Below are positions 1 to 37,877 of a stretch of DNA of 64,000 nucleotides, in pieces (the first letter of the stretch is position 1; each line of letters begins with the position of its first letter). The notes under the pieces are model-generated. The model searched no databases, was not told the DNA's origin, and saw only the letters and a program-made list of their open reading frames with translations. The DNA comes from an uncultured Maribacter sp. GTDB lineage: Bacteria > Bacteroidota > Bacteroidia > Flavobacteriales > Flavobacteriaceae. The DNA lies in contig NZ_CANMBB010000004.1 of the NCBI RefSeq assembly GCF_947495965.1, positions 124,001-188,000 of the forward strand, read 5' to 3'. The translations under genes were made by a program, and so were the position numbers.

Positions 1-650
1 TTTCCATGGTTTGGAATTTCGGCACGTAATTTGGCAGCTTTTTTAGCTACTTTAGGGTCATTAATATCTCTAAAAAAGAAAAATGCAAGAGGAAGGGCTA
101 TTAGTAAGGGAAGTAGACCAACACCTAGGTATGCAGTTCTCCACCCAAAATTTTCAATCAATGAAAATGCATAAAGTTTTGCAAATGCACCAAACAAGCC
201 AGTACCAAGTAAGGAAAGCCCTAGAGCTAAACCTCTATTTTCATTAAACCAGTTATTTATAGCACGTGTCCATGTCATTGGTAGCGTTCCTGCTCCTGCA
301 AATGCCATTAATCCCCAAAGTATATAATATAAAAGAGGAGAACCGTTATTAAAATTAAAAGAAATAAAAATAAGTCCAAATAATAATAAAGAGCATAGAG
401 CTGTTTTTCTTGCTCCAATTTTATCTGCTACATAACCAATTAATGGACTAGCTATTAATGCCGAAATAGTGAAAACCGTAAGTCCTCCCATTACAGTATC
501 CATTCCCCACCCAAAATTTTTAGTTAATGGAATAGCAAATACACCTATGGTATAAAATGGTAAAGGAGACATTCCTAATCCAATACCAAAAGTAGAAGAT
601 AATATTACTGGCCATCCATATTTAAATTCTTTAAGGTTAGAAAATTTCAT
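1..650 (-). CDS. MFS transporter, partial (C-terminus beyond left edge)
   Basis: I translated the minus strand from an ATG at 650; the frame stays open to base 1, giving about 216 residues and lacking the C-terminal half. The protein begins MKFSNLKEFKYGWPVILSST and continues with hydrophobic helices, the MFS loop signature GYVADKIGARK between helices 2 and 3, and a typical RGLALGLSLLGTG segment in helix 5. It is a 12-helix inner-membrane carrier by family, substrate unknown. It is divergent from the DUF3598 gene at 959 and shares the operator-bearing intergenic region with it, so it probably belongs to the same regulon and may import an intermediate of the neighbouring pathway. Confidence 0.85.
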   Translation of the reverse strand, partial: MKFSNLKEFKYGWPVILSSTFGIGLGMSPLPFYTIGVFAIPLTKNFGWGMDTVMGGLTVFTISALIASPLIGYVADKIGARKTALCSLLLFGLIFISFNFNNGSPLLYYILWGLMAFAGAGTLPMTWTRAINNWFNENRGLALGLSLLGTGLFGAFAKLYAFSLIENFGWRTAYLGVGLLPLLIALPLAFFFFRDINDPKVAKKAAKLRAEIPNHG

Positions 651-958
651 AGTTTATCTATTTAATTAGTAGTTCATTTTTTATTTAAAAAGCCTTTTTT
701 CACGAAAAAATTACTCAATTTCCATCAAAAACAGGTAATTAGATTAGTTTTTTTTATTTTGTTTACTAGTTTTTAAGCAACACTTTTTTTGTTTTAAATA
801 TCTGACAATTAATTAATTGCAATGCTTTTAAGAGTGTTTTTTTAAATTGTTAGACCAAAAATTATTTATAAATTTAATGATTAAGTATGTTAATTATTAA
901 TAAAATTAACTATTTTTATGAAGTAAATGCAAAACACCTGACTTATAAATAAATTAAT
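651..958. promoter_or_regulatory. Divergent AT-rich regulatory region with GTTAAY-type operator
   Basis: These 308 bases hold no gene. At 880-894 lies ATTAAG-TAT-GTTAAT, a one-arm-degenerate copy of the GTTAAY-N3-GTTAAY motif found at four other places in the cluster, with an upstream TTTAAT at 873-878 at the same offset as in three of them. TATTTTTA at 911-918 is one base away from the Bacteroidetes -7 box TAnnTTTG. The rest is A/T-rich without clear structure. The site probably controls the MFS gene to the left and the long operon to the right. Confidence 0.5.
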
Positions 959-1477
959 ATGAAGAATTATGAATTAAAATTATTTCCTAAACATACAGGG
1001 ATTTGGGAAGGTACATATAGAAGAATAGGAGCAGACGGAATTCTGATAGATCAATGGAAAAGTAGACTTACAATTAGATTTTTACCCGATGGAAGATACC
1101 ATCAAGTAAATCAATATTTCTGGGAAGATGGTTTTGAAGAATGCTTAGATTTTGGAATAAATAGTTTTAATGATAAAGGAGAGCTAATTTTTGAAAATCC
1201 AAGATTATCAGGAAAAGCATGGGAAACTGGTAGGAGTGTGGTTCTTATTTGGGATTATAAACACAGACCAGGAATGACTCTTTTTGAACAAATAGATTTA
1301 ATAGGCAATGACGATCATAGAATAAGAGTTTGGAAATGGTCCGAAAAAGATACCTTCAATGGTGTAACCATGATTGAAGAACGTAAAGTTGCTACAGAAG
1401 AAGAAATAGACCCTCAATTCTGGGTAGACCTTCCTAACAAAAGAACAAACGGACAAGCTTCAAGATCTGATAGTTAA
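959..1477 (+). CDS. DUF3598-like calycin-fold protein
   Basis: A 172-residue protein without signal peptide, hence cytoplasmic. The N-terminal pattern HTGIWEGTYRRIGADGILID, followed by alternating beta-strand-like segments (LTIRFLPDGRYHQVNQYFW), resembles DUF3598, a lipocalin/calycin-type family frequent in cyanobacteria and structurally akin to CpcS/CpcT bilin lyases. It is the first gene of the plus-strand operon, 64 bases after the operator-like site. Given four CpcT/CpeT-like genes in the same locus, a role in binding a hydrophobic or pigment-like ligand is plausible. The family call rests on motif resemblance only; no enzymatic residues can be assigned. Confidence 0.55.
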   Translation: MKNYELKLFPKHTGIWEGTYRRIGADGILIDQWKSRLTIRFLPDGRYHQVNQYFWEDGFEECLDFGINSFNDKGELIFENPRLSGKAWETGRSVVLIWDYKHRPGMTLFEQIDLIGNDDHRIRVWKWSEKDTFNGVTMIEERKVATEEEIDPQFWVDLPNKRTNGQASRSDS

Positions 1478-1516
1478 TTTCTAACATCAGCTAATAAAAT
1501 TTAAAATACTCATAAT

Positions 1517-2785
1517 ATGGGAATGACCATTACTGAAAAAATTATGGCCCGCAATAGCGGAAGAGACCATGTAGTGCCAGGAGAATTAGTGTGGACAGAT
1601 GTGCATACAGTAATGACAATGGATTACCTTGGTAAAACTTGTTTTGATAAATTTAGATCCCTTGGTAAAACCGAGGTGTTTAATAAAGATAGGGTAATAT
1701 GTGTGTCGGATCACTTAGTGCCTCCTCCAAACCAAAAGTTTGCTACAATGTTAAACGAGTGGAGAGAGGTTGTAAAACAACATGATATTACTAATTTTTA
1801 TGATTTAGGTAGGCAAGGTATTGCACACCAAATTATGGTAGAACAAGGCCATGTACTTCCTGGAACAATAAGTATTGGGACAGATTCTCATGCAAATACA
1901 TATGGTGCCGTTGGTGCCGTTGGTAATGCAATAGGAGTTACTGATGCCGCTGTAGCTATGGCTACTGGAAAAGCATGGTTTAGAATTCCAAAAACAGTAA
2001 AGTTTCATGTTACAGGAAAGTGGCAGCCGTGGGTAATGGCAAAAGATTTAAGTCTTCATATTATGGGGATGATGCATTGGAATGGGCATTTATTGTACAA
2101 GTCTATAGAGTTTACTGGACCAGCAATTGAAAGTTTAAGCATGGCAGGTAGAATGACACTGTGTAATATGACGGTTGATTTAGGAGCAAAAAATGGAATT
2201 ATAGCTCCAGACGCAATAACCCAAAGATATTTAAAAGATAGAGCTATTGGAGATTGGGATATGATAGCTAGTGATGCTGATGCAGAATACGATCAAGTGT
2301 ATACTATAGACATTTCTGATTTAGGGCCAACAGTTGCTATGCCTGGAAAGTTAGATGATACAGTGCCCGTAGAAAAACTTATTGGCACCAAATTTAATAA
2401 GGCATTTGTAGGTACATGTACTAATGGTAGGTTAGAAGATATTGCTACAATTGCAAAAATTTTGAAAGGGAAACAAGTACATAGAGATGTAAATATGATT
2501 TTAGTGCCTGCTAGTCAAACCGTTTATTTGCAGGCATTACGTGAAGGTCATATAGAGACTTTAATAGAAGCAGGAGTAGCAGTAGATACTCCAAGTTGTG
2601 CTGCATGTGCAGGAATACATACTGGTGTTGCAGGTGATGGTGATATAGTTCTTAGTGCAGGAAATAGAAACATGACAGGGCGTATGGGAAGTAAAAAAGC
2701 AGAAATTTATTTAACATCGCCAAGTGTGGTTGCAGCATCTGCTTTAACAGGAGTAATTACAGATCCAAGAACTCTTAGTATATAA
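1517..2785 (+). CDS. Aconitase-family hydratase, large subunit (LeuC-like)
   Basis: A 422-residue protein of the aconitase/3-isopropylmalate dehydratase large-subunit family. The three cysteines expected to hold a 4Fe-4S cluster are visible: C301 in GTCTNGRLED and C361/C364 in PSCAACAGIHTG. An early GTDSHANTYGAVGAVG segment matches the family substrate/cluster region. It pairs with the LeuD-like gene at 4153, separated by a flavin oxidase gene. No other leucine genes are nearby, so an isopropylmalate role is unlikely; 2,3-dimethylmaleate hydratase and other substituted-maleate or citraconate hydratases of this family are better models. The exact substrate is inference from the following aldolase gene and the ring-opening enzymes. 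Confidence 0.85.
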   Translation: MGMTITEKIMARNSGRDHVVPGELVWTDVHTVMTMDYLGKTCFDKFRSLGKTEVFNKDRVICVSDHLVPPPNQKFATMLNEWREVVKQHDITNFYDLGRQGIAHQIMVEQGHVLPGTISIGTDSHANTYGAVGAVGNAIGVTDAAVAMATGKAWFRIPKTVKFHVTGKWQPWVMAKDLSLHIMGMMHWNGHLLYKSIEFTGPAIESLSMAGRMTLCNMTVDLGAKNGIIAPDAITQRYLKDRAIGDWDMIASDADAEYDQVYTIDISDLGPTVAMPGKLDDTVPVEKLIGTKFNKAFVGTCTNGRLEDIATIAKILKGKQVHRDVNMILVPASQTVYLQALREGHIETLIEAGVAVDTPSCAACAGIHTGVAGDGDIVLSAGNRNMTGRMGSKKAEIYLTSPSVVAASALTGVITDPRTLSI

Positions 2786-2791
2786 AGAATT

Positions 2792-4141
2792 ATGAAAAGA
2801 CGCTCCTTTATACAAAAAACAGGAATAGCTGGGTTAGGTGTAGCGCTAAGCCCTTTGGCTTGTACTAAAACCAAAGCTTTAGATACAGAATTCCTTATTT
2901 TGGGAGGGGGCTTATCTGGTCTTTATTTAGCATATCTACTTGAAAAAGAAGGAAGAGATTATATTTTATTAGAAGGTAGTGGTAGAATTGGCGGAAGAAT
3001 GTTTACGCGCAAGGATATTAATAGAGATGTAGGAGGAAAAGGTATTGGAGATGGTTATGCAGAAGTCATGTCTCTTATTAACGAATTTAATACCGAGATG
3101 ATAGATATAACGGATTATATGAATTCGCCAACGGCAATCTATAAAGACGGTGTATTGCATAATACTTGGGACAGTAAAGAACCAAACCCAAGAATGCTAC
3201 AGTATATAGCATTTGGTAAAGAAAAACAATTAGGAGCGTTAGACGAATGGTATAAAAGACCAGAGTTAGATGAGGTTTATAGTAAAGTTTTAAAACGTAA
3301 TGGTTTATCTGAAGCAGATTTAGATTTGGTAAATATTACTGCTAATTATAATGACGTTAGGGAAACTTCTGTTATGAATGCCTATCATAGTAGTGCTTTT
3401 AGAAAATATAATATCTCTAAGAGAGTACTTAATTTTAAAGGAGGAACAGCTCCATTTATAGAGTCTATAGCAAAAAGACTTAAAAAACCAGTTTTAAAAA
3501 ATAAAATGGTTACTTCTATAGATGATTCTGGAGAGAGTGTTTTGGTTACTTGTAATGATGGTACAAGTTATAAAAGTAAAAAAGTAGTTTCTACATTGCC
3601 TTTTTCTACATTGAGAGATGTAAAAATGAACGCTAGTTTTAATACCAATCAAGAAAAGGCTATTCAAAATTTAAACTACACCAAAATTACTCAGATTCAT
3701 TTAGCACATAGTGAACTTTTTTGGGAAGAAGATGGTAGCCCCGCTGCAATGTGGACAGATACTCCTTTAGAACGTGTTATGAATTTGAGCTCTCATAGAG
3801 ATGAAAAACAAATTGCTTGTTGGGTAAATGGGACAGGAACTACTTTTTTTGATACTATGTCAGAGAAAGAAGTTGCAGCGTATACCATTAAAAAAATGAG
3901 TGAGATACGGCCAGCATCAACAGGAAAAATAGAATATTTAGGAATGCAAAATTGGGGGAAATATAAATATAATAAAGGAGCATACGCAGAATTTGGTGTA
4001 GGGCAAGCTGCTTGGTTTATAGATATGATAAAACCCGCGAGTAATTTACATTTTGCAGGAGAACATACAGCCCATATGTCAAGGGGAATGGAAGCGGCAG
4101 CGGAATCTGCCAAAAGAGTATTTTTTGAATTAATTAATTAA
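2792..4141 (+). CDS. Tat-exported lipoprotein flavin amine oxidase (first of three)
   Basis: A 449-residue FAD-dependent amine oxidase/phytoene-desaturase-type protein. The N-terminus MKRRSFIQKTGIAGLG is a Tat signal (RRSFIQ) ending in a lipobox PLAC, so the folded flavoprotein is probably exported and lipid-anchored. The dinucleotide-binding motif GGGLSGLYLAYLLEKEG is followed by GRIGGRM, and the C-terminal FAD motif is HFAGEHTAHMSRGMEAAAES. The family oxidises C-N or C-C bonds or desaturates; the substrate here is unknown. It sits between the two hydratase subunits, 6 bases after the large-subunit gene, tying it to the same pathway. Paralogues are at 29765 and 33207. Confidence 0.88.
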   Translation: MKRRSFIQKTGIAGLGVALSPLACTKTKALDTEFLILGGGLSGLYLAYLLEKEGRDYILLEGSGRIGGRMFTRKDINRDVGGKGIGDGYAEVMSLINEFNTEMIDITDYMNSPTAIYKDGVLHNTWDSKEPNPRMLQYIAFGKEKQLGALDEWYKRPELDEVYSKVLKRNGLSEADLDLVNITANYNDVRETSVMNAYHSSAFRKYNISKRVLNFKGGTAPFIESIAKRLKKPVLKNKMVTSIDDSGESVLVTCNDGTSYKSKKVVSTLPFSTLRDVKMNASFNTNQEKAIQNLNYTKITQIHLAHSELFWEEDGSPAAMWTDTPLERVMNLSSHRDEKQIACWVNGTGTTFFDTMSEKEVAAYTIKKMSEIRPASTGKIEYLGMQNWGKYKYNKGAYAEFGVGQAAWFIDMIKPASNLHFAGEHTAHMSRGMEAAAESAKRVFFELIN

Positions 4142-4152: not shown

Positions 4153-4677
4153 ATGATAAAAGGAAAATGTTGGGTAGCAGACGATTATGTAATGGCCTAC
4201 GATATTATCATTCAAGAATATTGGACATCTGCAATAGACCCTGCCGAAAATAGTAAGTGGGTAATGGCTGGTGTAAAAGAAGAGTTTAATAAGGAGAATG
4301 CATTTAAAGATGCCGGTTTTACTTTTATCGTAGCTGCGCATAATTTTGCAGGAGGTGGTAAATCTATAGAACATGTTATTACTGGCCTTATGGGAGCGGG
4401 AGTACAGGCTGTATTTGCAACAAGTTTTGCAAGATTACAGTTTCGTAATGCTATAAACTACGGATTACCATTTGTTACTTGTGATGATATTGATAAGGGG
4501 TGTGAAACCGGAGATGAGCTAGAATATAATCCAGAAACAGGTATAATAACAAATATATCTAAAGGAGCCTCTTTTCAATCTGTTCCTGCAGCACCTTTTG
4601 TTGCAGAGGTAGGTAGCGCAGGTGGCTTAATGAATTATGTTCGTGAAAAAATAGCTAAAGGAGAACCAATAGAATAA
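4153..4677 (+). CDS. Aconitase-family hydratase, small subunit (LeuD-like)
   Basis: A 174-residue swivel-domain protein partnering the LeuC-like subunit at 1517. Visible family motif: NFAGGGKSIEH (residues 64-74), followed by AVFATSFARLQFRNAINYGL, which corresponds to the LeuD pattern of a serine/arginine substrate loop and the ASFARIFFRN helix. The usual GCGSSREH is replaced by AGGGKSIEH, a noticeable change in the substrate-recognition loop that argues for a substrate other than isopropylmalate. The gene is 4 bases upstream of the HpcH/HpaI aldolase gene, which suggests hydration followed directly by aldol cleavage. Confidence 0.8.
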   Translation: MIKGKCWVADDYVMAYDIIIQEYWTSAIDPAENSKWVMAGVKEEFNKENAFKDAGFTFIVAAHNFAGGGKSIEHVITGLMGAGVQAVFATSFARLQFRNAINYGLPFVTCDDIDKGCETGDELEYNPETGIITNISKGASFQSVPAAPFVAEVGSAGGLMNYVREKIAKGEPIE

Positions 4678-4681: not shown

Positions 4682-5443
4682 ATGAAAGAGAATAGACTTA
4701 AAAAAAGAATAGAAGATGGTAAAGTAGGTTTTGGTATAATAGGACCTACAGTAGACCCTACTATTTGCGAGTATGTAGGCCTTACTGGTATGGATTTTTA
4801 TATGATGGATGGAGAGCATGGAGCTATTACGGCATCAGAAGTTACCAATATGGTACGTGCATGCGAGTTAGTAAATACCACTCCATTAGCAAGAATTAGA
4901 AGCGTAGATACTAAATTAATTCTTCAATATATGGATGCAGGTGTTATGGGAGTAATGATGCCAAGTATTGATACTGTTGACGATGTTAAAAAACTGGTAG
5001 AAGCAATTAAATACCCACCTTTTGGAAAAAGAGGTTTAGGTCCTGTTCGTGCGGCAGATTATATGCAAGGGAGTATGAGCCAAGCAGAATATGTAGAGTA
5101 TGCAAATAAGCAAACATTAGTATTACCGCAGATAGAATCTTTAGAATGTGTAAAGAATTTGCCAGAATTGTGTAAAATTGATGGAGTTGATGGGTTTATT
5201 ATTGGCCCTAGAGATTTAGCAATGTCTATGGGATATTATGATGGACCGGGACATGATGAGGTAAAAAAACAATTAGATGAAATTTTTGAAACCATAAACC
5301 AATCTAATAAATGGTTTGGTACTGTTGCTGGTAGTGCAGCACAAGCAGAAGGATTAATAGAAAAAGGAGCTTCTTTTATCATGAACTCCGTACAAGGTCT
5401 TATCAAGGTTTCTGGAAATGCTTTCTTAGAAGCAAGAAAATAA
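4682..5443 (+). CDS. HpcH/HpaI-type aldolase (malate-lyase-like)
   Basis: A 253-residue class II metal-dependent aldolase of the HpcH/HpaI/citrate-lyase-beta family, of usual length. Motifs: MMDGEHG with the presumed general base H46, metal ligand region LPQIES, and the family hallmark DGFIIGPRDLAMSMG. Family members cleave 4-hydroxy-2-oxo acids or malyl compounds to pyruvate or glyoxylate plus a second product. Here it directly follows the hydratase small subunit, so a retro-aldol cleavage of a substituted malate or a derived oxo-acid is the simplest role. The product pair is not predictable from sequence. Confidence 0.85.
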   Translation: MKENRLKKRIEDGKVGFGIIGPTVDPTICEYVGLTGMDFYMMDGEHGAITASEVTNMVRACELVNTTPLARIRSVDTKLILQYMDAGVMGVMMPSIDTVDDVKKLVEAIKYPPFGKRGLGPVRAADYMQGSMSQAEYVEYANKQTLVLPQIESLECVKNLPELCKIDGVDGFIIGPRDLAMSMGYYDGPGHDEVKKQLDEIFETINQSNKWFGTVAGSAAQAEGLIEKGASFIMNSVQGLIKVSGNAFLEARK

Positions 5444-5512: not shown

Positions 5513-5824
5513 ATGGCAGCATTAGTCGTTTTATTTAATCTAAAAAATAATGCTTCACAAGAAGCTTATGAAAAGTGGGCGCAAACTACAGATGTTCCAA
5601 CAGCATCTAGCATGTCTTCAGTAGATTCATTTAAAGTATTCAAATTAGGAACCATAATGGGTACTGATAATACATCGCCTTTTCAGTATTGTGAGGTATT
5701 AGAAATTAATGATATGACAAAATTAGGAGAAGAGGTAACATCAGAAACGATGCAAAAAGTAGCAGCACAGTTTCAAGAATTTGCAGATAATCCTACGTTT
5801 ATTATATCAGAACAAATAGCATAG
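5513..5824 (+). CDS. RedY/HapK-like small protein
   Basis: A 103-residue protein starting MAALVVLFNLKNNASQEAYE and ending with MQKVAAQFQEFADNPTFIIS. Length and pattern fit a dimeric alpha/beta-barrel domain and, as far as I can recall the family, the REDY-like HapK group (PF11639), whose named members lie in the prodiginine (tripyrrole pigment) clusters of Streptomyces and Hahella. Their biochemical role is not settled. No signal peptide. It lies 69 bases after the aldolase and 3 bases before the SDR. A pyrrole-related role would fit the locus but is inference. Confidence 0.55.
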   Translation: MAALVVLFNLKNNASQEAYEKWAQTTDVPTASSMSSVDSFKVFKLGTIMGTDNTSPFQYCEVLEINDMTKLGEEVTSETMQKVAAQFQEFADNPTFIISEQIA

Positions 5825-5827: not shown

Positions 5828-6661
5828 ATGTATAATCTAAAAGGCAAAACAGCTGTTATTACAGGCTCGGGCAAGCAAGGGGCAATAGGAGAGGCAATTG
5901 CAATAAAACTTGCAGGAGAAGGCTGTAATATTGTTATTTCGGATATAGGGGTAACTAAAGGAGAACAGTTTAGTGAAGAGCATGTTGGTACCACAGAAGA
6001 AATGGATACTATAGTTGCGAAAATTAAAAAGCTAGGAGTAAACGCAGTAGGTATTTCTTGTGATGTTCGGATAGAAAAGCAAGTAATGCAATTAATTAAA
6101 AAATCTAAAGAAGCTTTTGGGACTGTAGATATTTTAATTAATAATGCAGGTATTGGGTATATAATGGAATCTTTTACAGAATTCAAGGAAGAGAGCTGGG
6201 ATGCTGTTTTAGATGTGAATCTTAAAGGAGCTTTTTTATGTTCTAAACATGCTGCTTTACAAATGATAGAACAAGGAAATGGCGGTTGTATTGTAAATAT
6301 TGCAAGTCAAGCAGCTAAATCAGGTTTTCCTTTTGCTGCAGCATACACAGCATCTAAACACGGAATGATTGGCTTAACACGTTCTAATGCCGTAGAATTA
6401 GGAGCATATAAAATTAGAGTAAATGCGGTTTGCCCAAACCATATTACTACAGGTTTAGGGCATTGGCAAAACAAGTTTTTTAGTGATAAAATGGGGTTAG
6501 ACTATGATAAATATTTACAATCTATTGTAGATAAAAACCCATTAAAAAGAACAGGTTTAGTAGAAGATATTGCAAAGGCAGTAGCTTTTTTAGCATCCGA
6601 TCAGGCAGATTATATAACTGGAGAGGCTATGAATGTAACAGGGGGAGAAGAATACCATTAA
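5828..6661 (+). CDS. Short-chain dehydrogenase/reductase
   Basis: A 277-residue classical SDR using NAD(P)H. The cofactor motif TGSGKQGAIG starts at residue 13, NNAG is at about 105, and the catalytic set S160, Y173, K177 (YTASKHG) is intact. The C-terminal VTGG is typical of 3-oxoacyl-ACP-reductase-like members. There is an extra stretch between beta2 and beta3 (KGEQFSEEHVGTTEEMD), longer than in minimal SDRs. The gene follows the RedY-like gene by 3 bases. Likely role: oxidation or reduction of a hydroxyl/oxo intermediate of the pathway; substrate unknown. Confidence 0.9.
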   Translation: MYNLKGKTAVITGSGKQGAIGEAIAIKLAGEGCNIVISDIGVTKGEQFSEEHVGTTEEMDTIVAKIKKLGVNAVGISCDVRIEKQVMQLIKKSKEAFGTVDILINNAGIGYIMESFTEFKEESWDAVLDVNLKGAFLCSKHAALQMIEQGNGGCIVNIASQAAKSGFPFAAAYTASKHGMIGLTRSNAVELGAYKIRVNAVCPNHITTGLGHWQNKFFSDKMGLDYDKYLQSIVDKNPLKRTGLVEDIAKAVAFLASDQADYITGEAMNVTGGEEYH

Positions 6662-24128: not shown

Positions 24129-24139
24129 TTTTTGTCCCT

Positions 24140-25826: not shown

Positions 25827-25836
25827 AAATTTTAAT

Positions 25837-27152: not shown

Positions 27153-27590
27153 TTATATTTTCTCCATCAATTGGTATAGAACTATTAAGTGTCCATCAAA
27201 ATCTACAAATGCTTGTTCTATAAAAGTTGCATAATCGTTTTCATCTGTTTTAATATCGGTAGTTTTTAGTCCCAAGGCTTTTATTTTAGAAATAACTTGT
27301 GCTAAGTCATCTACCTTAATTACAGAAGCAGTCATATGTATGCCTTCTTGTTTTGGTAGAGGTACACCTTTAATTTCAGTTAGCGCAAATGTTCGCTCTT
27401 GGGTAGGACTATCCATGGTGGCAAAATTTAAATCGGCTTCATTTGGAATATTAAATACGGGATAAGAGAAAGAGTCTTTCTCAGAAGGTTGAATATAATT
27501 AATAGTGAAACCTAAAATGTCTCTATAAATGCTAAGAGAACGTTCTAAATCTGCAACACAAAGGGTAATTCTTTTATATAATAATGACAT
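27153..27590 (-). CDS. Single-domain VOC protein (tandem paralogue)
   Basis: A 145-residue protein started at the ATG at 27590, because MSLLYKRITLCVADLERS aligns exactly with the start of its neighbour and removes an overlap with the upstream gene; a start at 27641 is possible but less likely. Shared motifs with the protein at 26708 include RDILGFTINYI and the segment DSPTQERTFALTE. Cytoplasmic VOC module; substrate unknown. Confidence 0.82.
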   Translation of the reverse strand: MSLLYKRITLCVADLERSLSIYRDILGFTINYIQPSEKDSFSYPVFNIPNEADLNFATMDSPTQERTFALTEIKGVPLPKQEGIHMTASVIKVDDLAQVISKIKALGLKTTDIKTDENDYATFIEQAFVDFDGHLIVLYQLMEKI

Positions 27591-27615
27591 ACTATTTTCT
27601 TTTAGTGAATATTTT

Positions 27616-31270: not shown

Positions 31271-32168
31271 CCCACTTTAGTTCTTCTCCAAAAATGTCTG
31301 GTTGTTTTTCTTCTGTAGCAGCAATAAAATCTTTTGGTAAATCTTCTTTATTAAAGAAAGTACCTCCACTAGAAGTCCATATCATATGTCCTGGAGTGCC
31401 TTGCATTTTTAATATAGAAAGCCAAGAAGTTTCACTAGTCCAATGGTATTCGGATGGTATGTGAGTTAAAGACCTATCTGTTAAGTATTTTTTATCTACA
31501 TCATAAGTATCTAAAGTCATTTCAGTACGCCAAGTTTGGCTCTTTTTTTCGAACCATTTTGTAAATGCATGGCGAGTAATATGAATTTTATCTCCTAACT
31601 CTGTAAATACTAGATTAAGTGGAGCGCCAAAAGCAGTACTTTCCATAGTAAAACTAGCATCTACTTCTGGACCATTCGGTGTCATTATACCTCCGCGAAT
31701 CCCTGCTCTAAAAGCTGGGACTTCTACTTCTTTACCAGTATATGGGTTTATCATATTACTTAAAAAAGCATTTGTTTTAGGGTCTCTATAAAGTAACCAA
31801 CCTTTAGATTTAGTTTCTATATCTCCGTTTTCTAATAAGCGCATAATTTTCATTCCGCAACCAGAATATCTAAATACTTCTTTGCCAAATACATTAAGGC
31901 TATCTGGTTTGTCTGGTCGTATACCAAAAACACGACCTTCGGAGTAAGAATAAGTCATTTTACCAGAAAGATCTCCCTGCATTTTTTCAAAGATTAGTAA
32001 TTGATCTTTTGGACTATTAAGGTCATATGCAATTTCTTTTGAAGGTAATGACGTATCTATTTGTTCTTTGGGTTTGTTTTCTTTAGTAGAGCAACTTACA
32101 ATTAAAATACAGGCCAATAGGCCCAATGTTAATTTATACGAAGACCTAATTTTTTGTAAATAAATCAT
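31254..32168 (-). CDS. DUF1838 lipoprotein
   Basis: A 304-residue DUF1838 protein with lipoprotein signal (LTLGLLACILIVSC). Pattern: MTYSYSEGRVFGIRPDKPDSLN, GWLLYRDPKTNAFLSNMINPYTGKE, a C-terminal SWLSILKMQGTPGHMIWTSSGG. It is the third paralogue, with those at 15000 and 16994. It lies between a CpcT/CpeT-like and a flavin oxidase gene, the same company the other DUF1838 genes keep, so the three families probably act together outside the cytoplasm. Confidence 0.8.
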   Translation of the reverse strand: MIYLQKIRSSYKLTLGLLACILIVSCSTKENKPKEQIDTSLPSKEIAYDLNSPKDQLLIFEKMQGDLSGKMTYSYSEGRVFGIRPDKPDSLNVFGKEVFRYSGCGMKIMRLLENGDIETKSKGWLLYRDPKTNAFLSNMINPYTGKEVEVPAFRAGIRGGIMTPNGPEVDASFTMESTAFGAPLNLVFTELGDKIHITRHAFTKWFEKKSQTWRTEMTLDTYDVDKKYLTDRSLTHIPSEYHWTSETSWLSILKMQGTPGHMIWTSSGGTFFNKEDLPKDFIAATEEKQPDIFGEELKWDENEK

Positions 32169-32185: not shown

Positions 32186-33196
32186 TTAATTATTTTCACA
32201 TTCGCAAACAGCAGAAACCCAACCTAACTGAAATCCTATTTTTTTAGCTCTTGGTTCTGCAAAAGCTAAAGCAACTGATGCTTTTTGACCTTCTTCTTTA
32301 AGACGTAGAAAGAAAAAATTAGAATCTTCTAGTTTGTAAAAAGGGTATTCTTTATCTCTTAATTGAATATAATATGTTTTCCCATTTATAGGGTTTACCA
32401 TAGAGGCTTTGCCTCCTTGGTTATGTACTTTTAAGTTTTTAAAACTTTTATCTTTTTCGCTTGGAGCATAGTAAGCTGTTTCAAAAAAAGAAACATCGCA
32501 ATTGTAATAGCTTACTTTTTTCATTTTATGCGGTTCTGCATTAGGATGCCCTTTATGAAAGGAATCGTCTTTAACCAAAAAAGTGCGATCTACGCGCCAA
32601 TATTGTTTTTCGGACAAGATAATATCATGTACAGAGTACCTTTTTTCTTTTCCTTTTCCAAATTGACAGGCTTTGCTCTCCATGCTTCCATGGTATTGAT
32701 CTCCTTTTCTTTGAAATATTACATCACAACCATCTAATCCAAAAAGATTTTTTTTAGAAATAGTGTTTATCATAGTTTGGTGCGTGACAGAATCTAAAGC
32801 ATATTTTGAAGCATCTTTTAGAAAATAAATTTTCATTGCAATACCAGGTTTCTCTTTTAAACTATGAAAAGAGACAAGTCTTTGCCTACTAATTTTTGTT
32901 TGGTCATTATCTAAGTATTCTTCCACATAAAAAACAAAGTTCCCAATGCTATCTGCTTTTACTCTTTTATGAATGGCATGCATTTGTTGGTGTTTCTCAT
33001 TCTCTTTTCCCCACCAATCTCCACGAGCTTCTACCCACATTTGATCGTCATTATCAAATTCGCCTTCAAACCAATTTGCCAAAACTTCTAGGTCGCGTGT
33101 ATTTGGGTCGCCTAAATCCAGGCTTGTATTAGGCGCAGCCACTGTTAGCTGTAAACCAAAGATTGCTAATAAAATAAAAGTAGTATAGAGTTTCAT
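32186..33196 (-). CDS. Exported CpcT/CpeT-like protein, two-part, 336 aa
   Basis: About 336 residues when started at the ATG at 33196, which gives a clean signal peptide (MKLYTTFILLAIFGLQLTVA). CpcT/CpeT features: LEVLANWFEGEFDNDDQMW, NFVFYVEEYLDNDQTKISRQRL, GCDVIFQRKGDQYHGSMES with a Cys following, and YSVHDIILSEKQYWRVDR. A C-terminal part of about 110 residues is shared in layout with the protein at 13950, ending GWVSAVCECE versus GWIRVQCDLK. The extension is not in cyanobacterial members I know and may be a second ligand-binding or partner domain. Confidence 0.78.
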   Translation of the reverse strand: MKLYTTFILLAIFGLQLTVAAPNTSLDLGDPNTRDLEVLANWFEGEFDNDDQMWVEARGDWWGKENEKHQQMHAIHKRVKADSIGNFVFYVEEYLDNDQTKISRQRLVSFHSLKEKPGIAMKIYFLKDASKYALDSVTHQTMINTISKKNLFGLDGCDVIFQRKGDQYHGSMESKACQFGKGKEKRYSVHDIILSEKQYWRVDRTFLVKDDSFHKGHPNAEPHKMKKVSYYNCDVSFFETAYYAPSEKDKSFKNLKVHNQGGKASMVNPINGKTYYIQLRDKEYPFYKLEDSNFFFLRLKEEGQKASVALAFAEPRAKKIGFQLGWVSAVCECENN

Positions 33197-33206
33197 ATAA
33201 TTAGTT

Positions 33207-34709
33207 TTAAGCATTAAGTATAATGTCTAGAGCGGCTCTTTCTCCAGATTCAAAAGCACCTTCCATTCCTCTTTCCATAATGGCTGTATGTTCTCCACAG
33301 AAATGAATATTTCCGTGCGACTTACGCATGTGATTAGCAAACTTTTTTACTTGTCCAGGTTGCCAATACACCCAATCCCCAGCACCATGAACATCTCTTT
33401 CACAGGATTGGATAATTAACCGTTCTAAAGCTCCTTTTGTGGAAGGTCTCATTTCTGCTAACTTCATTTCTACATAATTAAAAACTTGCTCATCCGTCAT
33501 TAATCTAAATTTATTAGATTCTGGACCGTTTATATATGCAATTGCTGCATCTGGATCTGTTTTGTTTCTTTTAGTACGCACTGCAAAACGTTCTAATGGG
33601 CCATCGGTCCACATATTAGCTTCCATACCATCTTTTTCCCAGAAAGGTTCTTTAACAAGAAAGTGTACTTGTACAGAAAGTCCATAGTCCATTTGGTCTA
33701 TTGCTTCTTTGGTTATTCCAGAAATATGAGGTTCAAAAGTTACATTACGTAAAACAGAAATAGGAATACTACAAATTACCTGTTTTCCTTTATATTCACT
33801 ACCATCGGCACAACTCACTTGTACAATACCATCTTCTTCTTTAAAACCAACTACGGTTTTACCTAAATGAGGTTCGTTTTTTAAGCTCCCGGCCATGGCT
33901 TCTGGTAGTAAGGAGTTTCCGCCTTTTACCATTTTCCAGTTTGTACCATCTGGAAAACTAATTTTACCACTACTAAAATGCATTACGTGGTAACGGCGTA
34001 GTTCGTTTATTGCAGAGGTTCTGTGCATTCCGCCAGAATGTATAACAACATTCATTAAGCGAATAGTTTCTTCATTAACCCCTTTAGATCTAAGGTATTG
34101 ATCATGTGGAATATCATATTTATGAAATTCTGGTTCTAACCAGGCATCTAAAGGTTTTCCAGATAAAGGATTATCTCTGTGCGATATGGTAGAAAGAAAA
34201 CGATGAGGTAATAAGGTTCTGTCTTCGCCCTCTAGTGGGTTTAACTTATGAGATTCCCAGTTTTTAGCATCTATATAGTTTCCTTTAATGTTATACAACC
34301 AAGGTCTATTATTGCCGCCTCCTTCGGGGTTATAAAATTCTAATCCAAGTTTGTTAACCGTACTAATCATACGGGCATAATTTGCTCCTATATATTCTCC
34401 TGCAGCTTCTGGTTTTCCTGGAACATCATTAAGGGTGTATACTCTACCTCCCAGACGTTTTCTTCCTTCTATTACCTGTACGTCATATCCAGATTCTTCT
34501 AAAAGCATTGCAGCATGTAAACCCGAAAGCCCGGCACCAACAACAATAATATCATGAGAAGCTTTAATAGGTTTATCTTTTATATGAATTGCAGGAGCTT
34601 TAGAAGAAGTTACCTCTTTCTTAGGATCCGGAGAACAACTTGCGGGTAGTATTAAACCTGCAGATGCACCGGCAATACCTTGAATGAATTTTCTTCTATT
34701 AGTTTTCAT
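33207..34709 (-). CDS. Tat-exported lipoprotein flavin amine oxidase (third of three)
   Basis: A 500-residue FAD-dependent amine oxidase. Tat signal TNRRKFIQGIAGASAG with lipobox LPASC; FAD motifs VVGAGLSGLHAAMLLEESG, RLGGRVY and HFCGEHTAIMERGMEGAFES. It is 16 bases downstream of the lipoprotein cytochrome c gene, which suggests that electrons from the flavin are passed to that cytochrome. Substrate unknown; see the paralogues at 2792 and 29765. Confidence 0.88.
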   Translation of the reverse strand: MKTNRRKFIQGIAGASAGLILPASCSPDPKKEVTSSKAPAIHIKDKPIKASHDIIVVGAGLSGLHAAMLLEESGYDVQVIEGRKRLGGRVYTLNDVPGKPEAAGEYIGANYARMISTVNKLGLEFYNPEGGGNNRPWLYNIKGNYIDAKNWESHKLNPLEGEDRTLLPHRFLSTISHRDNPLSGKPLDAWLEPEFHKYDIPHDQYLRSKGVNEETIRLMNVVIHSGGMHRTSAINELRRYHVMHFSSGKISFPDGTNWKMVKGGNSLLPEAMAGSLKNEPHLGKTVVGFKEEDGIVQVSCADGSEYKGKQVICSIPISVLRNVTFEPHISGITKEAIDQMDYGLSVQVHFLVKEPFWEKDGMEANMWTDGPLERFAVRTKRNKTDPDAAIAYINGPESNKFRLMTDEQVFNYVEMKLAEMRPSTKGALERLIIQSCERDVHGAGDWVYWQPGQVKKFANHMRKSHGNIHFCGEHTAIMERGMEGAFESGERAALDIILNA

Positions 34710-34724
34710 GACATTGTAGATTAA

Positions 34725-35234
34725 TTATTCTTCTATTTTTGTTTCTTCTTTAAGGTATTCAATTAAAGCAGTCTGCTGCTCTTCTTTTTTAATGCCAACA
34801 AAAGCCATTTTTGTTTGAGGTACGTAACCAGCTGGGTCTTGCATCCATTTACGAATAGTTTCTTCGCTCCATGTAATTCCAGAGTTTTTAAGAGCTTCTG
34901 AATATTCGAAACCTTCTGTAGTGGCAGCTTTTTTATTAAAAATACCGTACAGATTAGGGCCTACTTTATGTGCTTCTCCTTTTTTTAAATTGTGGCATGC
35001 GGCACAGGCAATAAACATTCTTTTTCCAAGAATGTTTGTATCTTGAGTTTTATCAGAACTAGTTTCGGCTACTGGAGTAGTTTTTGATTCGGTTTTTATG
35101 TTAAAGGTTGGCTCTTCTTTTTTTTCTTTTTGGCCACATGAAGAAATTAGCAAAAGGGTACATAAAAATAATGGATAGAAGATTTTCCTAGCCTTTAAAT
35201 TTAACTTTTCATTTTTTGTTTTACACGCAATCAT
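34725..35234 (-). CDS. Lipoprotein class I cytochrome c
   Basis: A 169-residue protein with lipobox LISSC33, a charged linker, and a class I cytochrome c domain: haem motif CAACH (C77, C80, H81), GPNLYGIFNKKAATTEGF, and the probable methionine ligand M143 in PQTKMAF. It would be lipid-anchored and face the periplasm. First gene of the ten-gene minus-strand operon, 46 bases from an operator-like site. A role as electron acceptor for the three exported flavin oxidases is inferred from position. Confidence 0.9.
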   Translation of the reverse strand: MIACKTKNEKLNLKARKIFYPLFLCTLLLISSCGQKEKKEEPTFNIKTESKTTPVAETSSDKTQDTNILGKRMFIACAACHNLKKGEAHKVGPNLYGIFNKKAATTEGFEYSEALKNSGITWSEETIRKWMQDPAGYVPQTKMAFVGIKKEEQQTALIEYLKEETKIEE

Positions 35235-35344: not shown

Positions 35345-36760
35345 TCACTTGAATATTTTTCCTTGTTTAATTACGGTGTTAATTTTTTTAGTGTTTTCTA
35401 TATTTTCTAAAGGATTGGCATCAAGAATAAGTAGATCTGCCCACATACCTTCTTTAATTTGACCTAGCTCTTTTTCTAAGTTAAAATATTTTGCAGGATT
35501 TGTTGTTGCAGTTTTTAATACCTCTATGTTTGGTATACCAGTTTCTGCCAATGCAGCTAATTCTTCATGCAAGCTTAATCCAGGGGTTAAATAGGCTATG
35601 GGTGTGTCTGTGCCTGCCATAATAGGAATTTTTGCATCGTATATTTTCTTTATCATTTTAATATGCCAATGGTCATATTTTTTTCTAAAATCTGAGGCTT
35701 TCATTTGGGTTAAAGCTTCCGATCTATTTTGCCAATAATGTGCAATAGAATCAGGTAAGGCAAAATAGCTATTCTGCCATTCTTTTTTTTCAAAATACCT
35801 TCTACTAAAAAAAGTGTTTAACGCTAATGTTGGTATTTGCCAAGTATCATTTCTTTTTAGTATGGCCAGTATGGAATCTGCTTTAAATTCATCATAATTT
35901 TCAATTGCTTTTTTTTGTTGCGCTTTATGAATAGCAGCCCTAAGAGTCCCACCTTGTATATTTGTACCTGCTAAAAGCATGGCTTTTCTTTCTTTTAATA
36001 GCTCTTTAGCGTTTGAGGCGCAGGATAATTCTAGGTTACGTATATGCTCCATACTATGAAGGCCAGCATTAGATGCGCTTATTACATCCATACTAAGAGG
36101 TATATGGCCAGTAACTTTAAGACCTTTTTTATTAGCAGTTTTAATAATATGAATAAATTGTTCTGGACTAAGCATTTCATATGCTTTTAAGAGATCTACA
36201 TTTTTTGTTTCAAGAAAATCTATTTGTTTTGTAATTGCTTCAGTAGAATTTAAACCAATAGATAGTTCTGGGTGTCCTGGATCACTACCATCATATACAT
36301 TTGGAATTCCATCTAACAAGGGGCCGGCCATAAATATTCTGGGAGCTATGGTTGGGTTGGCAATAGCATGGTCTTTCCATTTTTTTACTATAGCTACTTT
36401 TCCTCCAGTATCTCTAACACTAGTAATACCATATTTTAAAAATAAATTAGACATAATTGGAGCTAATTCTTCTATATAAGCAAAATGCACATGTGTGTCC
36501 CAAAGGCCGGGTATTAAGTATTTATTTGTACCATTAATAATTGTATTTTCTTTAGATAGAACAATATTTTTAGTAGGCTCTATTTTTAAAATTTTGCCAT
36601 CTAATAAAACTATTGTTTGGTTTTCTTTTAGCCCTTCTAAAGGGTCTATCGTATTAATGTTTTCTATGCAAATTGCATTCTCAAAAAAATACTCTTTAGA
36701 ACCGCATGAGAAAAGGACTAGCAGTAAAAGTAGAGGTGTATATTTAATGTTTAAAAACAT
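35345..36760 (-). CDS. Amidohydrolase-family lipoprotein
   Basis: A 471-residue metal-dependent hydrolase with lipoprotein signal (LLLLLVLFSC). Motifs: GLWDTHVHFAY (HxH metal ligands), a lysine region in DLLKAYEM, GHIPLSMDVISASNAGLHSMEH (two histidines), and AGTDTP (catalytic Asp). It matches the imidazolonepropionase/prolidase-like amidohydrolases that open cyclic or linear amides. It is divergent from the MDR reductase across an operator-like site and thus likely a regulon member; cell location is the periplasmic face. Substrate unknown. Confidence 0.85.
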   Translation of the reverse strand: MFLNIKYTPLLLLLVLFSCGSKEYFFENAICIENINTIDPLEGLKENQTIVLLDGKILKIEPTKNIVLSKENTIINGTNKYLIPGLWDTHVHFAYIEELAPIMSNLFLKYGITSVRDTGGKVAIVKKWKDHAIANPTIAPRIFMAGPLLDGIPNVYDGSDPGHPELSIGLNSTEAITKQIDFLETKNVDLLKAYEMLSPEQFIHIIKTANKKGLKVTGHIPLSMDVISASNAGLHSMEHIRNLELSCASNAKELLKERKAMLLAGTNIQGGTLRAAIHKAQQKKAIENYDEFKADSILAILKRNDTWQIPTLALNTFFSRRYFEKKEWQNSYFALPDSIAHYWQNRSEALTQMKASDFRKKYDHWHIKMIKKIYDAKIPIMAGTDTPIAYLTPGLSLHEELAALAETGIPNIEVLKTATTNPAKYFNLEKELGQIKEGMWADLLILDANPLENIENTKKINTVIKQGKIFK

Positions 36761-36806
36761 ATAAGAGGGTTTAAATTTGTTTAGGTAAAAATAAATGATT
36801 AATTTA

Positions 36807-36828
36807 ATTAACTGTTAATATAGTTAAT
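36807..36828. promoter_or_regulatory. Putative operator, GTTAAT-ATA-GTTAAT with upstream half-site
   Basis: GTTAAT at 36814-36819, three bases, GTTAAT at 36823-36828, and ATTAAC at 36807-36812. It lies between the divergent amidohydrolase and MDR reductase genes, 35 bases before the latter's start codon. Confidence 0.5.
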
Positions 36829-36863
36829 TAAATATACAATTCATAAAATGTATCATTTTACTT

Positions 36864-37877
36864 ATGCAAAATAAAAGATTGGTTCTAGCTTCTCGTCCTA
36901 CAGATTTTATAACATCATCTAATTTTAAATTAGAAAAAATAGCATTACCAAAGCTTAAATCTGGAGAGTTTTTAATTAAAGTGTTTTATTTGTCTGTAGC
37001 TCCTGTTATGAAATTTTATATGTTAGATGGTGCTGGTATTGAGGCGCCTTTACAGGTAGGAGATTTAATGCGAGGAAGAGGAGTAGGAGAGGTAATAGAG
37101 AGCAAAAATAATGATTTTGCAGTAGGGGATATTGTACAAGGAAAATGTGGTTGGCAAGAATATGTTATATGCGATGGTAGTCCGTATTATATGATGTATA
37201 AAGTAGAACAGCGAATTTTGCCTTATTCTACGGCACTAGGTGTTTTGGGTATGACAGGTTTTACTTCTTATTTTGGTTTATATAAAGTTGGGGCTTTACA
37301 AAAAGGAGAAAACGTTTTAGTTTCTGCTGCTGCTGGTGGTGTGGGCTCATCTGTTGGTAGTCTTGCAAAGATTAAAGGGGCTAGAGCAGTAGGTTTTGCT
37401 AGTACAGATGAAAAATGCAAATTACTGGTTCAGAAATTGGGCTATGTAGGAGCTATAAATTACAATAGTGAAAATATTGCAGAACAAATTGATGGTTTTT
37501 TTCCTGACGGTATAGATGTTTATTTTGATAATGTAGGTGGGCCTTTGTTAGATATTGCTTTAACAAAGTTAAGAAGATATGCTAGAGTGGTTTGTTGTGG
37601 TAGAATTTCGCAATATTTGGATGGCAAAGACGCCTCTGTGTATCCTTTAAATAATTGGCATAGAATCGGCGCTACAAGGTCTAAAATGGAAGGATTTTTT
37701 ATTTACGATTTTGAAAGTGACTTTCCTATAGCAGAAAAGGAAATGTCACAATGGATAAAAGAAGGTAAATTAAATTACCAGGAAGATGTTTTGGAGGGGT
37801 TAGAGAATATGCCAATTGCTCTTAATCGTTTGTTTCAAAAAAAGAATGTAGGTAAACAATTAGTTAAAATTAACTAG
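36864..37877 (+). CDS. MDR-family NADP-dependent oxidoreductase (zinc-independent)
   Basis: A 337-residue medium-chain reductase of the prostaglandin/leukotriene/curcumin reductase type. Evidence: LSVAPVMKFYM, GDLMRGRGVGEV, and the nucleotide motif VSAAAGGVGSSVGSLAKIKG, with no zinc-ligand cysteine set. Members reduce alpha,beta-unsaturated ketones or similar double bonds with NADPH. It is the last gene tied to the catabolic locus by an operator-like site and overlaps the convergent glycosyltransferase gene by 8 bases. Confidence 0.87.
   Translation: MQNKRLVLASRPTDFITSSNFKLEKIALPKLKSGEFLIKVFYLSVAPVMKFYMLDGAGIEAPLQVGDLMRGRGVGEVIESKNNDFAVGDIVQGKCGWQEYVICDGSPYYMMYKVEQRILPYSTALGVLGMTGFTSYFGLYKVGALQKGENVLVSAAAGGVGSSVGSLAKIKGARAVGFASTDEKCKLLVQKLGYVGAINYNSENIAEQIDGFFPDGIDVYFDNVGGPLLDIALTKLRRYARVVCCGRISQYLDGKDASVYPLNNWHRIGATRSKMEGFFIYDFESDFPIAEKEMSQWIKEGKLNYQEDVLEGLENMPIALNRLFQKKNVGKQLVKIN

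Follow-up and report, generated by a model that had tools for sequence, protein, structure and literature searches.

A gene island of Maribacter with CpeT-family proteins, DUF1838 proteins and a candidate cyclic-imide module, possibly for tetrapyrrole breakdown

Background

Which compound is taken apart by a flavobacterial gene block that places CpeT-family proteins beside flavin amine oxidase-family proteins, amidases and hydratases? The block lies in the window analysed here, 64,000 nucleotides of an uncultured Maribacter sp. (contig NZ_CANMBB010000004.1), which begins at position 124,001 of that contig (C4 of genome G000, 3.9 Mb). Coordinates with the prefix C4 are those of the contig, and bare numbers are those of the window. 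A preliminary description, made from the letters of the window, interpreted the block as a catabolic locus for a tetrapyrrole or bilin-like pigment. We found this interpretation partly supported and the observation behind it partly confirmed. The block belongs to a larger catabolic island, which probably includes a module turning cyclic imides into substituted maleates, and a tetrapyrrole or bilin is our best single guess for the substrate, a tentative one.

Synthesis and destruction of chlorophylls and bilins proceed on an enormous scale. To our knowledge there is no complete bacterial breakdown route for bilins or chlorophyll remnants, and no gene set taking pyrrole rings to central metabolism. 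Our searches of open-licence papers, on bacterial chlorophyll and bilin degradation and on maleimide, maleamate and tetrapyrrole, found no matching pathway.

Extent and unity of the island

The preliminary description let the block begin at position 959. The genes continue about 32 kb to the left of the window, to about C4:91,600, and the window holds the right half of an accessory catabolic island of about 70 kb. Pfam, run on the open reading frames (ORFs) of the window from 1 to about 38,600 (Table 1), confirmed nearly every part that had been named. The DUF3598-like, HapK/RedY-like, HyuA/HyuB, aconitase-type hydratase, aldolase, MFS and amidase-type proteins have matches in place, and so do the three flavin amine oxidases described as exported (2792, 29765 and 33207), which have twin-arginine starts. 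Besides the block start, the count of four CpcT/CpeT-like proteins needs correction: three pass Pfam in the window (13950, 19350 and 32186), and the fourth lies about 1.9 kb to the left of it (G000:C4:121410-122120), followed by two MFS carriers.

We read C4:70,001-125,000 for the left half. It carries two polysaccharide-deacetylase-family proteins of the PuuE/cyclic-imidase type (imidases A and B) and an isochorismatase-type amidase, in a same-strand run with a CaiB-type CoA-transferase, a second LeuC/LeuD pair and an HMGL-type lyase. A fourth DUF1838 copy is at C4:112486. No SusCD gene had been reported as visible; a TonB-dependent receptor does exist, outside the window, at C4:109366-112020. 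Other left-half genes are a CN_hydrolase (Pfam) and, by eye, VOC-like, dehydrogenase, alpha/beta hydrolase and SDR-like genes, an aldehyde dehydrogenase, and pyruvate-dehydrogenase-type E1 and E2 subunits. Directly left of the island come a propionyl-CoA carboxylase (by eye) and then a methylmalonyl-CoA mutase (Pfam search).

The gene block is almost certainly one functional catabolic island. Two genomes of the same genus, G001 and G005, keep its genes near-colinear, and a genome of another genus, G033, keeps most of this order in inverted orientation. A compact 34-kb version is found in a distantly related Kapaibacterium (G101, contig 205, 1266-35484), where 27 of the 30 ORFs of at least 85 amino acids match island genes (E <= 1e-4, identities 23-78%). 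The gene order kept across species and these 27 matches place the block beyond chance. Since Kapaibacterium G101 is classified in Bacteroidota (class Eximiradiia), the related gene sets span two phyla. The right edge plausibly lies near 37,877, since the counterpart of gene 36864 is followed in G033 by carboxylase and mutase genes, but it is less sure than the left part of the island: in G001 the match runs on through two more genes of the window. The amine oxidase at 2792 has no counterpart in G001 between the matches of its neighbours.

DUF1838 as the island marker

The best marker of the island is DUF1838, with three copies in the window and the fourth to the left. A search with copy 16994 in 84,980 species genomes gave 126 loci, of which the best 80 were kept with flanks of at most 10 kb, so the absence of distant genes from these loci means little; the flanks seldom extend to the island's right edge. 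Among these 80, the closest matches are Maribacter and other Flavobacteriaceae, and by title the loci are from Bacteroidota, many Gammaproteobacteria, some Alphaproteobacteria and a few others. Two contigs titled as Klebsiella pneumoniae metagenome-assembled genomes (L052 and L063), with DUF1838 matches of 56 and 53% like the surrounding gammaproteobacterial loci, are probably mislabelled bins.

From the 80 loci we selected 47 for a DUF1838 alignment; L047, L081 and L084 dropped out for stop codons, and the other 44 were aligned together with the window. The best hit of a sequence search of solved structures had E 0.46, and profile comparison with CpeT gave a probability of 4.2. DUF1838 as a bilin-binding calycin was considered and rejected as unproven, the structure model matching Rv2717c (nitrobindin-like) with Z 7.3, CpeS with 7.2 and DUF3598 with 6.8, no better than its matches to outer-membrane barrels. 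The plasmid DUF1838 records (Calothrix, Novosphingobium and Streptomyces) offered no clue to function; on the plasmid of Streptomyces sp. SGAir0924 (L141) the gene is next to a class III lanthipeptide synthetase, near gas vesicle genes. Literature searches on DUF1838 and on CpcT in Bacteroidetes returned no paper with a matching pathway.

Probably exported proteins of the T-type bilin-lyase family

The four island CpeT proteins score 46.9, 70.3, 76.1 and 98.7 bits in Pfam, where the gathering score is 21. An alignment of 31 chosen CpeT-like sequences, searched against solved structures, finds CpcT (7.7e-18) and also cyanophage CpeT, and the pattern G-x-[FY]-x-N-x-x-Q and two cysteines are conserved in all 31. 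The one CpeT protein that we modelled, 32186 (predicted local distance difference test, pLDDT, 87), superposes on CpcT 4o4o with Z 21.1 over 185 residues (2.9 A), on CpcT with phycocyanobilin (4o4s) with Z 20.7, on plant CRL with 19.6 and on phage CpeT with 16.5; all other rows are at or below 8.3. The island proteins belong to the T-type bilin-lyase family, and the N-terminal domain of 32186, as modelled, has that fold.

By simple inspection all four CpeT proteins, all four DUF1838 proteins and the three flavoproteins have export-type N-termini; the hydrophobicity screen is crude and also flags the surely cytoplasmic CaiB and HyuB. The CpeT-like proteins look exported. Pigment binding outside the cytoplasm, as first proposed, is consistent with the family, the fold and these N-termini, and the bilin ligand itself is a prediction. 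An amine oxidase adjoining CpeT recurs in a gammaproteobacterium (G100) and in Kapaibacterium, and in G100 the pair is followed by a cytochrome-like ORF with the motif CVACH. The cytochrome c at 34725 may take up electrons from the flavoproteins. Relatives of DUF3598 and HapK occur in pigment biology as well.

Compared with the cyanobacterial and cyanophage CpcT/CpeT lyases, the N-terminal fold of 32186, the profile, and the conserved N..Q and two cysteines are the same. The Maribacter proteins differ in their export-type N-termini, in the additional C-terminal domain of several of them, in being present in three to four copies, and in adjoining oxidases and hydrolases in hosts without a detected phycobiliprotein. 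ORF 21050 was tried as a further CpeT protein and rejected (hhalign to the CpeT alignment, probability only 24.5).

A conserved candidate cyclic-imide module

The preliminary description had also proposed imide opening, hydration and lyase cleavage. This part is strengthened by the PuuE-type pair, the isochorismatase, LeuCD, CaiB and HMGL genes of the left half, and by gene groups in Proteobacteria. Imidases A and B are adjacent diverged paralogues, about 32% identical, and are related in sequence to PuuE and HpPgdA. The best NCBIfam model for both is PuuE allantoinase (3.4e-33 and 1.5e-29). Among solved structures the pair matches PuuE, Pseudomonas relatives of PuuE and HpPgdA, with hits of A to 3cl6 (3.3e-23) and 3qbu (8.8e-11), and of B to 3s6o (3.1e-25), 3cl6 (2.9e-24) and 3qbu (3.3e-14). 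According to two published studies, the fungal cyclic imide hydrolase HxnM, which opens 3-hydroxypiperidine-2,6-dione derived from nicotinate, is 64% identical to the imidase of P. putida YZ-26 (PMC9304392); in structure HxnM comes nearest to HpPgdA, and among characterised proteins HpPgdA is closest to PuuE (PMC9304392, PMC3084791) but is itself inactive on allantoin (PMC3084791). Set beside these published relationships, the candidate imidases of Maribacter fall in the same branch of the polysaccharide-deacetylase family as the YZ-26 imidase, HxnM and PuuE, and differ from these in forming a pair of paralogues joined by an isochorismatase.

We opened 21 contexts with an imidase-A relative, 16 in genomes and 5 on plasmids. 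Left out were G245 and G291 of the 16 gammaproteobacterial imidase carriers, G001, G003, G007 and G033 of the relatives, and G103, G107, G108 and G109 of the surveyed DUF1838 carriers; 70 plasmid records match the imidase, of which 20 were listed and 5 opened. The isochorismatase gene adjoins imidase A in all 21 contexts (with 30% identity in Terrarubrum). Imidase B is present in 20, the match in Terrarubrum being imidase A itself. Ten of the 21 have a LeuC+LeuD pair at a distance of up to 12 kb, some contexts being cut within that distance (G005, G100 and G264 begin about 1-2 kb from imidase A), and a phosphoenolpyruvate (PEP)-mutase/isocitrate lyase (ICL)-type or HMGL-type lyase is found in 14. 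Four control windows at unrelated CpeT genes have none of the module genes. The modules are clearest in G182, G254 and G324, where lyase, isochorismatase, imidase A and imidase B stand beside GntR-like, LeuC, LeuD and TRAP-type transporter genes (GntR and some of the TRAP genes read by eye; in G182, LeuC is split over two overlapping ORFs), and are clear again on a Burkholderia plantarii plasmid and on Sphingomonas plasmid pJE1.

Plasmids of Comamonas, Burkholderia, Sphingomonas, Salipiger and Terrarubrum carry the module. On Burkholderia plantarii plasmid p1 (L143, 3503-13476) it comes with LeuCD, an ICL/PEP-mutase-family lyase, a FAD protein, GntR and an MFS carrier. This plasmid is typed as conjugative, which suggests that the imide module spreads as a cassette.

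The left hydratase pair exceeds the cut-offs of NF001614 (558 bits vs 385) and TIGR02087 (199 vs 109). In the right pair the large subunit does so (519 vs 385), and the small subunit, with 89 bits vs 109, stays below. The lyase of G254 is nearest to petal death protein (1zlp, 1.4e-55), methylisocitrate lyases and 2,3-dimethylmalate lyase (3fa3, 1.4e-48); petal death protein has ethylmethylmalate activity. A tblastn search with this lyase found nothing at E <= 1e-3 in C4:70,001-188,000. In the Maribacter region, without an ICL-family lyase, HMGL with CaiB or the HpaI-type aldolase would serve.

The simplest reading of the module would be a path from imide to half-amide, substituted maleate, malate and finally two acids. 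From gene content we hold it probable that the genes form a module from cyclic imide to substituted maleate, and a substituted maleimide is a likely intermediate. HyuAB may not be the imide opener.

Two known routes resemble the module. Dimethylmaleate hydratase and 2,3-dimethylmalate lyase form a branch of anaerobic nicotinate breakdown; the LeuCD/DmdAB-type hydratase and, in the proteobacterial contexts, an ICL-family lyase are shared with it, and this lyase is equally close to methylisocitrate lyase. The module differs in being fed by imide hydrolysis instead of methyleneglutarate mutase, and the Maribacter island in having HpaI-type and HMGL-type lyases and no ICL-family lyase. Aerobic nicotinate breakdown has a maleamate/maleate branch with NicF. 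The isochorismatase-family amidase for the half-amide is common to both, the PDB matches including the putative isochorismatase 3ot4/3uao, which we take to be NicF, whereas Maribacter has hydratases rather than a maleate isomerase. On the proteobacterial side, pJE1 carries an aspartate/glutamate racemase-family gene, and arylmalonate decarboxylase (AMDase)-family proteins (PF17645) occur near the gammaproteobacterial gene sets in the G099 and G100 regions (L106, L107 and L111). The AMDase family includes maleate isomerase, and these proteins may offer an isomerase branch for maleates.

Co-occurrence of the two gene sets

Among 99 relatives of the Maribacter genome, DUF1838 is found in 6 genomes and CpeT in 12. 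The six DUF1838 genomes have three to four CpeT genes each, 22 in total, all on the island contig near DUF1838. Imidase A of at least 90% identity is present in exactly these six, where the three kinds of gene are linked; among the genomes of the genus, G002, G004 and G006 lack the island. In the other 93 no match at E <= 1e-20 is above 29% identity. Fisher tests gave 8.2e-7 for CpeT and 8.9e-10 for the imidase.

For Gammaproteobacteria we searched 244 genomes from the order to which G100 belongs. Imidase A of at least 75% identity occurs in 16 of them, DUF1838 in 8 and CpeT in 6, the CpeT set lying inside the DUF1838 set and that inside the imidase set. The Fisher values are 4.6e-11 and 1.0e-10, or 1.1e-8 and 1.1e-7 without the seed genomes G099 and G100, which were first found via DUF1838. 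Such nesting would be expected of DUF1838/CpeT acting upstream and supplying an imide stage that is in wider use. The preliminary description had suggested a survey of DUF1838 plus CpcT/CpeT neighbourhoods; a shared island or linked sets are found in relatives and in Kapaibacterium, but in Gammaproteobacteria the genes are often unlinked. Of 11 DUF1838 carriers taken from our survey (Maribacter algarum included, L087 left out), 6 have CpeT.

Proposed pathway

We propose, tentatively, that the island serves to dismantle, one ring after another, a linear oligopyrrole of bilin or chlorophyll-catabolite type. The TonB-dependent receptor would bring the pigment into the periplasm, where the exported barrel proteins (four CpeT, four DUF1838) would hold it. 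The exported amine-oxidase-family flavoproteins, together with VOC-fold proteins and amidases, would oxidise and cut it to single-ring lactams and imides, passing electrons to the lipoprotein cytochrome c, and MFS carriers would import these products. For the following step we have gene content and its recurrence elsewhere: the PuuE-type imidases would open substituted maleimides, the isochorismatase-type amidase would remove ammonia, the LeuCD/aconitase-type hydratases would hydrate the substituted maleate, and the HpaI-type aldolase, or CaiB with HMGL, would split the malate. Cleavage could then yield propionate plus 2-oxobutyrate from an ethyl ring or 2-oxoglutarate from a propionate ring, and the island's pyruvate-dehydrogenase-type subunits and the flanking methylmalonyl-CoA mutase could finish propionate and the 2-oxoacids.

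Because the rings derived from protoporphyrin carry a single methyl group each, hydration at the carbon with the other substituent, followed by C-C cleavage, would give propionate from all of them. Five of the six carriers (G000, G001, G003, G005 and G033) have methylmalonyl-CoA mutase no more than about 10 kb from the island or its imidase triad, G000 at the left end of the island and G033 at the opposite one; the mutase of G007 lies on a separate contig. In G100, prpF, acnD, a prpC-type synthase and prpB, each above its NCBIfam cut-off, lie between the imide triad and the DUF1838 genes. A propionate route would fit the flanking enzymes and the pyruvate-dehydrogenase-type genes, and any methyl-bearing substituted maleate would do the same.

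We speculate further, with some doubt, that this is a transferable pathway for complete mineralisation of tetrapyrroles (bilins, phyllobilins or chlorophyll remnants) by way of dialkylmaleimides, with variants in marine Flavobacteriaceae, Saprospiraceae, a Kapaibacterium and aquatic Gammaproteobacteria, and with exported CpcT-fold proteins that have shifted from attaching pigments to helping consume them. If so, it could be tested directly in Maribacter vaceletii DSM 25230, a named strain with the island. Should the pigment be wrong, the conserved isochorismatase-imidase-imidase module, which frequently adjoins LeuCD and malate-type lyases, still yields a testable function for proteins now annotated as polysaccharide deacetylase family, DUF1838 and CpeT/CpcT family.

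Which substrate

Several findings weigh against a tetrapyrrole or against a single linked pathway. The phycobiliprotein family PF00502 is absent from all 13 carrier genomes searched, a Synechococcus control being positive. Because these genomes offer no phycobiliprotein acceptor, and in view of the export-type N-termini, we rejected the island CpeT proteins as working lyases. Heme oxygenase of family PF01126 is found in 0 of 8 genomes of the window's genus, other heme-cleaving families (IsdG-type and the like) not having been searched, and in only 2 of 16 genomes overall. A closed macrocycle would need another opener; a tetrapyrrole, if used, probably arrives already linear, or a flavoprotein or VOC-fold protein opens the ring. 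Gammaproteobacterium G328 has a heme-oxygenase-family gene (C6:1940175-1940723, 7.2e-8) about 12 kb from its imidase triad (C6:1952-1955 kb), with CpeT at 1962 kb and DUF1838 at 1968 kb, a single case that may be chance. A single CpeT gene exists in six relatives without the island (G026, G016, G036, G049, G052 and G063). These single genes score above the island copies (Pfam E 1e-41 to 1e-46), and the island is absent around those of G026, G063 and G016, whose neighbourhoods we read, and of G036, which we scanned. The DUF1838 model has no convincing fold relative, all Z being at or below 8.0 with outer-membrane barrels tying calycins, and DUF1838 of Streptomyces and Novosphingobium stands in other surroundings.

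The same holds for linkage. In G033 the stretch 1,070,001-1,105,000 lacks the 32186-34725 group (CpeT, amine oxidase and cytochrome c), and also the aminotransferase, rhodanese, RidA-like and FGE-like genes. Of the eight gammaproteobacterial DUF1838 genomes, only four (G099, G100, G264 and G328) have imidase and DUF1838 no more than 26 kb from each other; the distance is 225-990 kb in G265, G177 and G281, and in G245 the two genes occupy separate contigs. The 11 surveyed DUF1838 carriers have imidase A of at least 70% identity in five cases, of 50% in one, and at most 32% or none in five. Kapaibacterium has CpeT and DUF1838 and no PuuE-type match, its locus having instead an allantoinase/dihydropyrimidinase-like amidohydrolase (AllB 3.7e-65, below cut-off), and G108 has the imidase without CpeT. 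Neither a LeuCD pair nor a scored lyase is near in 7 of the 21 contexts. The closest matches of HyuB and of the isochorismatase are enzymes of the creatinine pathway, methylmalonyl-CoA mutase is widespread across the family, being present in 16 of 17 genomes searched, and the Fisher values overstate independence because the counted genomes are related.

Another hydrophobic N-heterocycle ending in a cyclic imide, such as a pyridine or piperidine alkaloid, a bis-indolyl-maleimide pigment or a prodiginine, is a rather unlikely substrate, one that the barrels would carry and that would share the imide module. Eight of the 16 gammaproteobacterial carriers, and also plasmids, have the module without CpeT or DUF1838, so it serves more than one upstream pathway. 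Amine-oxidase-family proteins with a cytochrome c recall nicotine dehydrogenation in Pseudomonas. The nicotinate-derived substrate of HxnM, a characterised relative of the imidases, points the same way (PMC9304392). Such a substrate does not by itself explain the three to four island-tied CpeT genes in Flavobacteriaceae, CpeT beside DUF1838 in Gammaproteobacteria and Kapaibacterium, and the propionyl-CoA enzymes beside the island.

We consider improbable a substrate without ring nitrogen, e.g. a steroid, polyketide or aromatic compound, for which VOC-fold dioxygenases, CaiB, SDR and aldehyde dehydrogenase would be central, the barrels would carry a hydrophobic molecule and the amidases would be peripheral. 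Five VOC-fold ORFs by Pfam in the window and more by eye to the left would fit it, as would CaiB, the dehydrogenases and the aldehyde dehydrogenase of the island, carriers named in steroid- or hydrocarbon-degrader families (Steroidobacteraceae, Nevskiaceae, Halieaceae), and acyl-CoA dehydrogenase-like ORFs (by eye) in 16 of the 47 loci counted as non-Bacteroidota. The many C-N hydrolases (two CN_hydrolase, two PuuE-type, isochorismatase, HyuAB and amidohydrolase) and the tie of the imidase to DUF1838 argue against it.

Least probable is a creatinine/hydantoin-type route on a hydantoin or ureide, in which HyuAB would open hydantoin with ATP, the isochorismatase would cleave the N-carbamoyl product and the PuuE pair would be allantoinase-like: HyuB is nearest to N-methylhydantoinase (8.9e-63), the isochorismatase to N-carbamoylsarcosine amidohydrolase (2.7e-28, solved structures), PuuE is allantoinase, and HyuAB lies alongside the triad in Salipiger and G264, but the route leads to an amino acid and can do without both the LeuCD hydratases and the malate-type lyases, the imidases score 115 and 103 bits, far under the cut-off of 424.6 for PuuE allantoinase proper (TIGR03212), and the CpeT and DUF1838 proteins stay unexplained.

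Gene content of the window

Table 1. Island genes in the window (E-values are from Pfam unless stated)
Feature	Position	Strand	Evidence and remarks
MFS carrier	3..650	-	MFS_1 1e-24; full ORF C4:123385-124650, C-terminal part left of window
DUF3598_N protein	959..1477	+	2.6e-6; counterpart of 50% identity in Kapaibacterium locus
Aconitase/isopropylmalate-isomerase-type hydratase, large subunit	1517..2785	+	1.8e-92; CxxC and further Cys
Flavin amine oxidase-family protein 1, twin-arginine start	2792..4141	+	Amino_oxidase 1.3e-45
Hydratase small subunit, LeuD/DmdB-like	4153..4677	+	Aconitase_C 2e-6; TIGR02087 2.6e-25, below cut-off
HpcH/HpaI-type aldolase	4682..5443	+	5.5e-34; TIGR02311 HpaI 1.8e-45, below cut-off
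HapK/RedY-like protein	5513..5824	+	HapK 2.1e-8
SDR dehydrogenase	5828..6661	+	2.5e-56
HyuA (hydantoinase/oxoprolinase A)	6753..8825	+	1.3e-88
Fumarate-reductase-like flavoprotein	8828..10255	+	FAD_binding_2 2.5e-51; nearest solved: fumarate, urocanate reductases
HyuB	10341..11957	+	1.6e-143; nearest solved: N-methylhydantoinase
S-adenosylmethionine methyltransferase, long N-terminal part	11963..13147	+	Methyltransf_25 1.9e-22; matched in 16/80 DUF1838 loci
Small protein after methyltransferase	13159..13512	+	0 Pfam families; 16/80 loci
SnoaL_3-like protein	13512..13931	+	4.5e-8
CpeT-family protein 1, signal-type N-terminus	13950..14996	+	CpeT 3.9e-12
DUF1838 protein, twin-arginine start	15000..15932	-	1.5e-24
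VOC/glyoxalase-fold protein, about two domains long	16035..16991	+	7e-14; 22/80 loci
DUF1838 protein, best-scoring copy, island marker	16994..17896	+	7.7e-71; model pLDDT 91
AhpC/TSA-type redoxin	17905..18372	+	1.2e-34
FGE-sulfatase-domain protein, signal-type N-terminus	18398..19333	+	4.2e-55
CpeT-family protein 2, signal-type N-terminus	19350..20027	+	CpeT 2.4e-19
VOC-fold protein	20048..21049	+	1.5e-5; 27/80 loci
Conserved protein, weakly CpeT-like N-terminus	21050..21616	+	0 Pfam families; 27/80 loci
MFS carrier	21619..22845	+	4.8e-46
MFS carrier	22896..24128	+	1.4e-42
Aminotransferase class I/II, ORF start uncertain	24032..25195	+	4e-44
RidA/YjgF-like protein, ORF start uncertain	25278..25928	-	8.6e-21
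Two-domain rhodanese	25837..26700	-	1.3e-29
Single-domain VOC protein	26708..27142	-	1e-8
Single-domain VOC protein	27153..27641	-	3.5e-11
CN_hydrolase (nitrilase/amidase fold), lipoprotein-like N-terminus, ORF start uncertain	27616..28779	-	1.9e-16
VOC protein, about two domains long	28748..29749	-	3.3e-8
Flavin amine oxidase-family protein 2, twin-arginine start	29765..31270	-	2e-52; nearest solved: monoamine oxidase B 6e-31
DUF1838 protein, lipoprotein-like start (lipobox-like)	31254..32168	-	2.7e-12
Two-domain CpeT protein 3, N-terminal domain modelled with T-type lyase fold	32186..33214	-	4e-21
Flavin amine oxidase-family protein 3, twin-arginine start	33207..34709	-	7.6e-48
Lipoprotein-like cytochrome c	34725..35234	-	1.5e-9; CAACH motif
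Amidohydrolase, lipoprotein-like N-terminus	35345..36760	-	5.7e-23
MDR-type dehydrogenase, probable right island edge	36864..37877	+	ADH_N_2 5e-32

Both of the tandem single-domain VOC genes at 26708-27641 have a counterpart in G005. To the right of the island, 42314-63998 is ordinary chromosome, with tRNA-Phe, pantothenate kinase, SurA-like, O-antigen-ligase-type, apolipoprotein N-acyltransferase and RND efflux genes.

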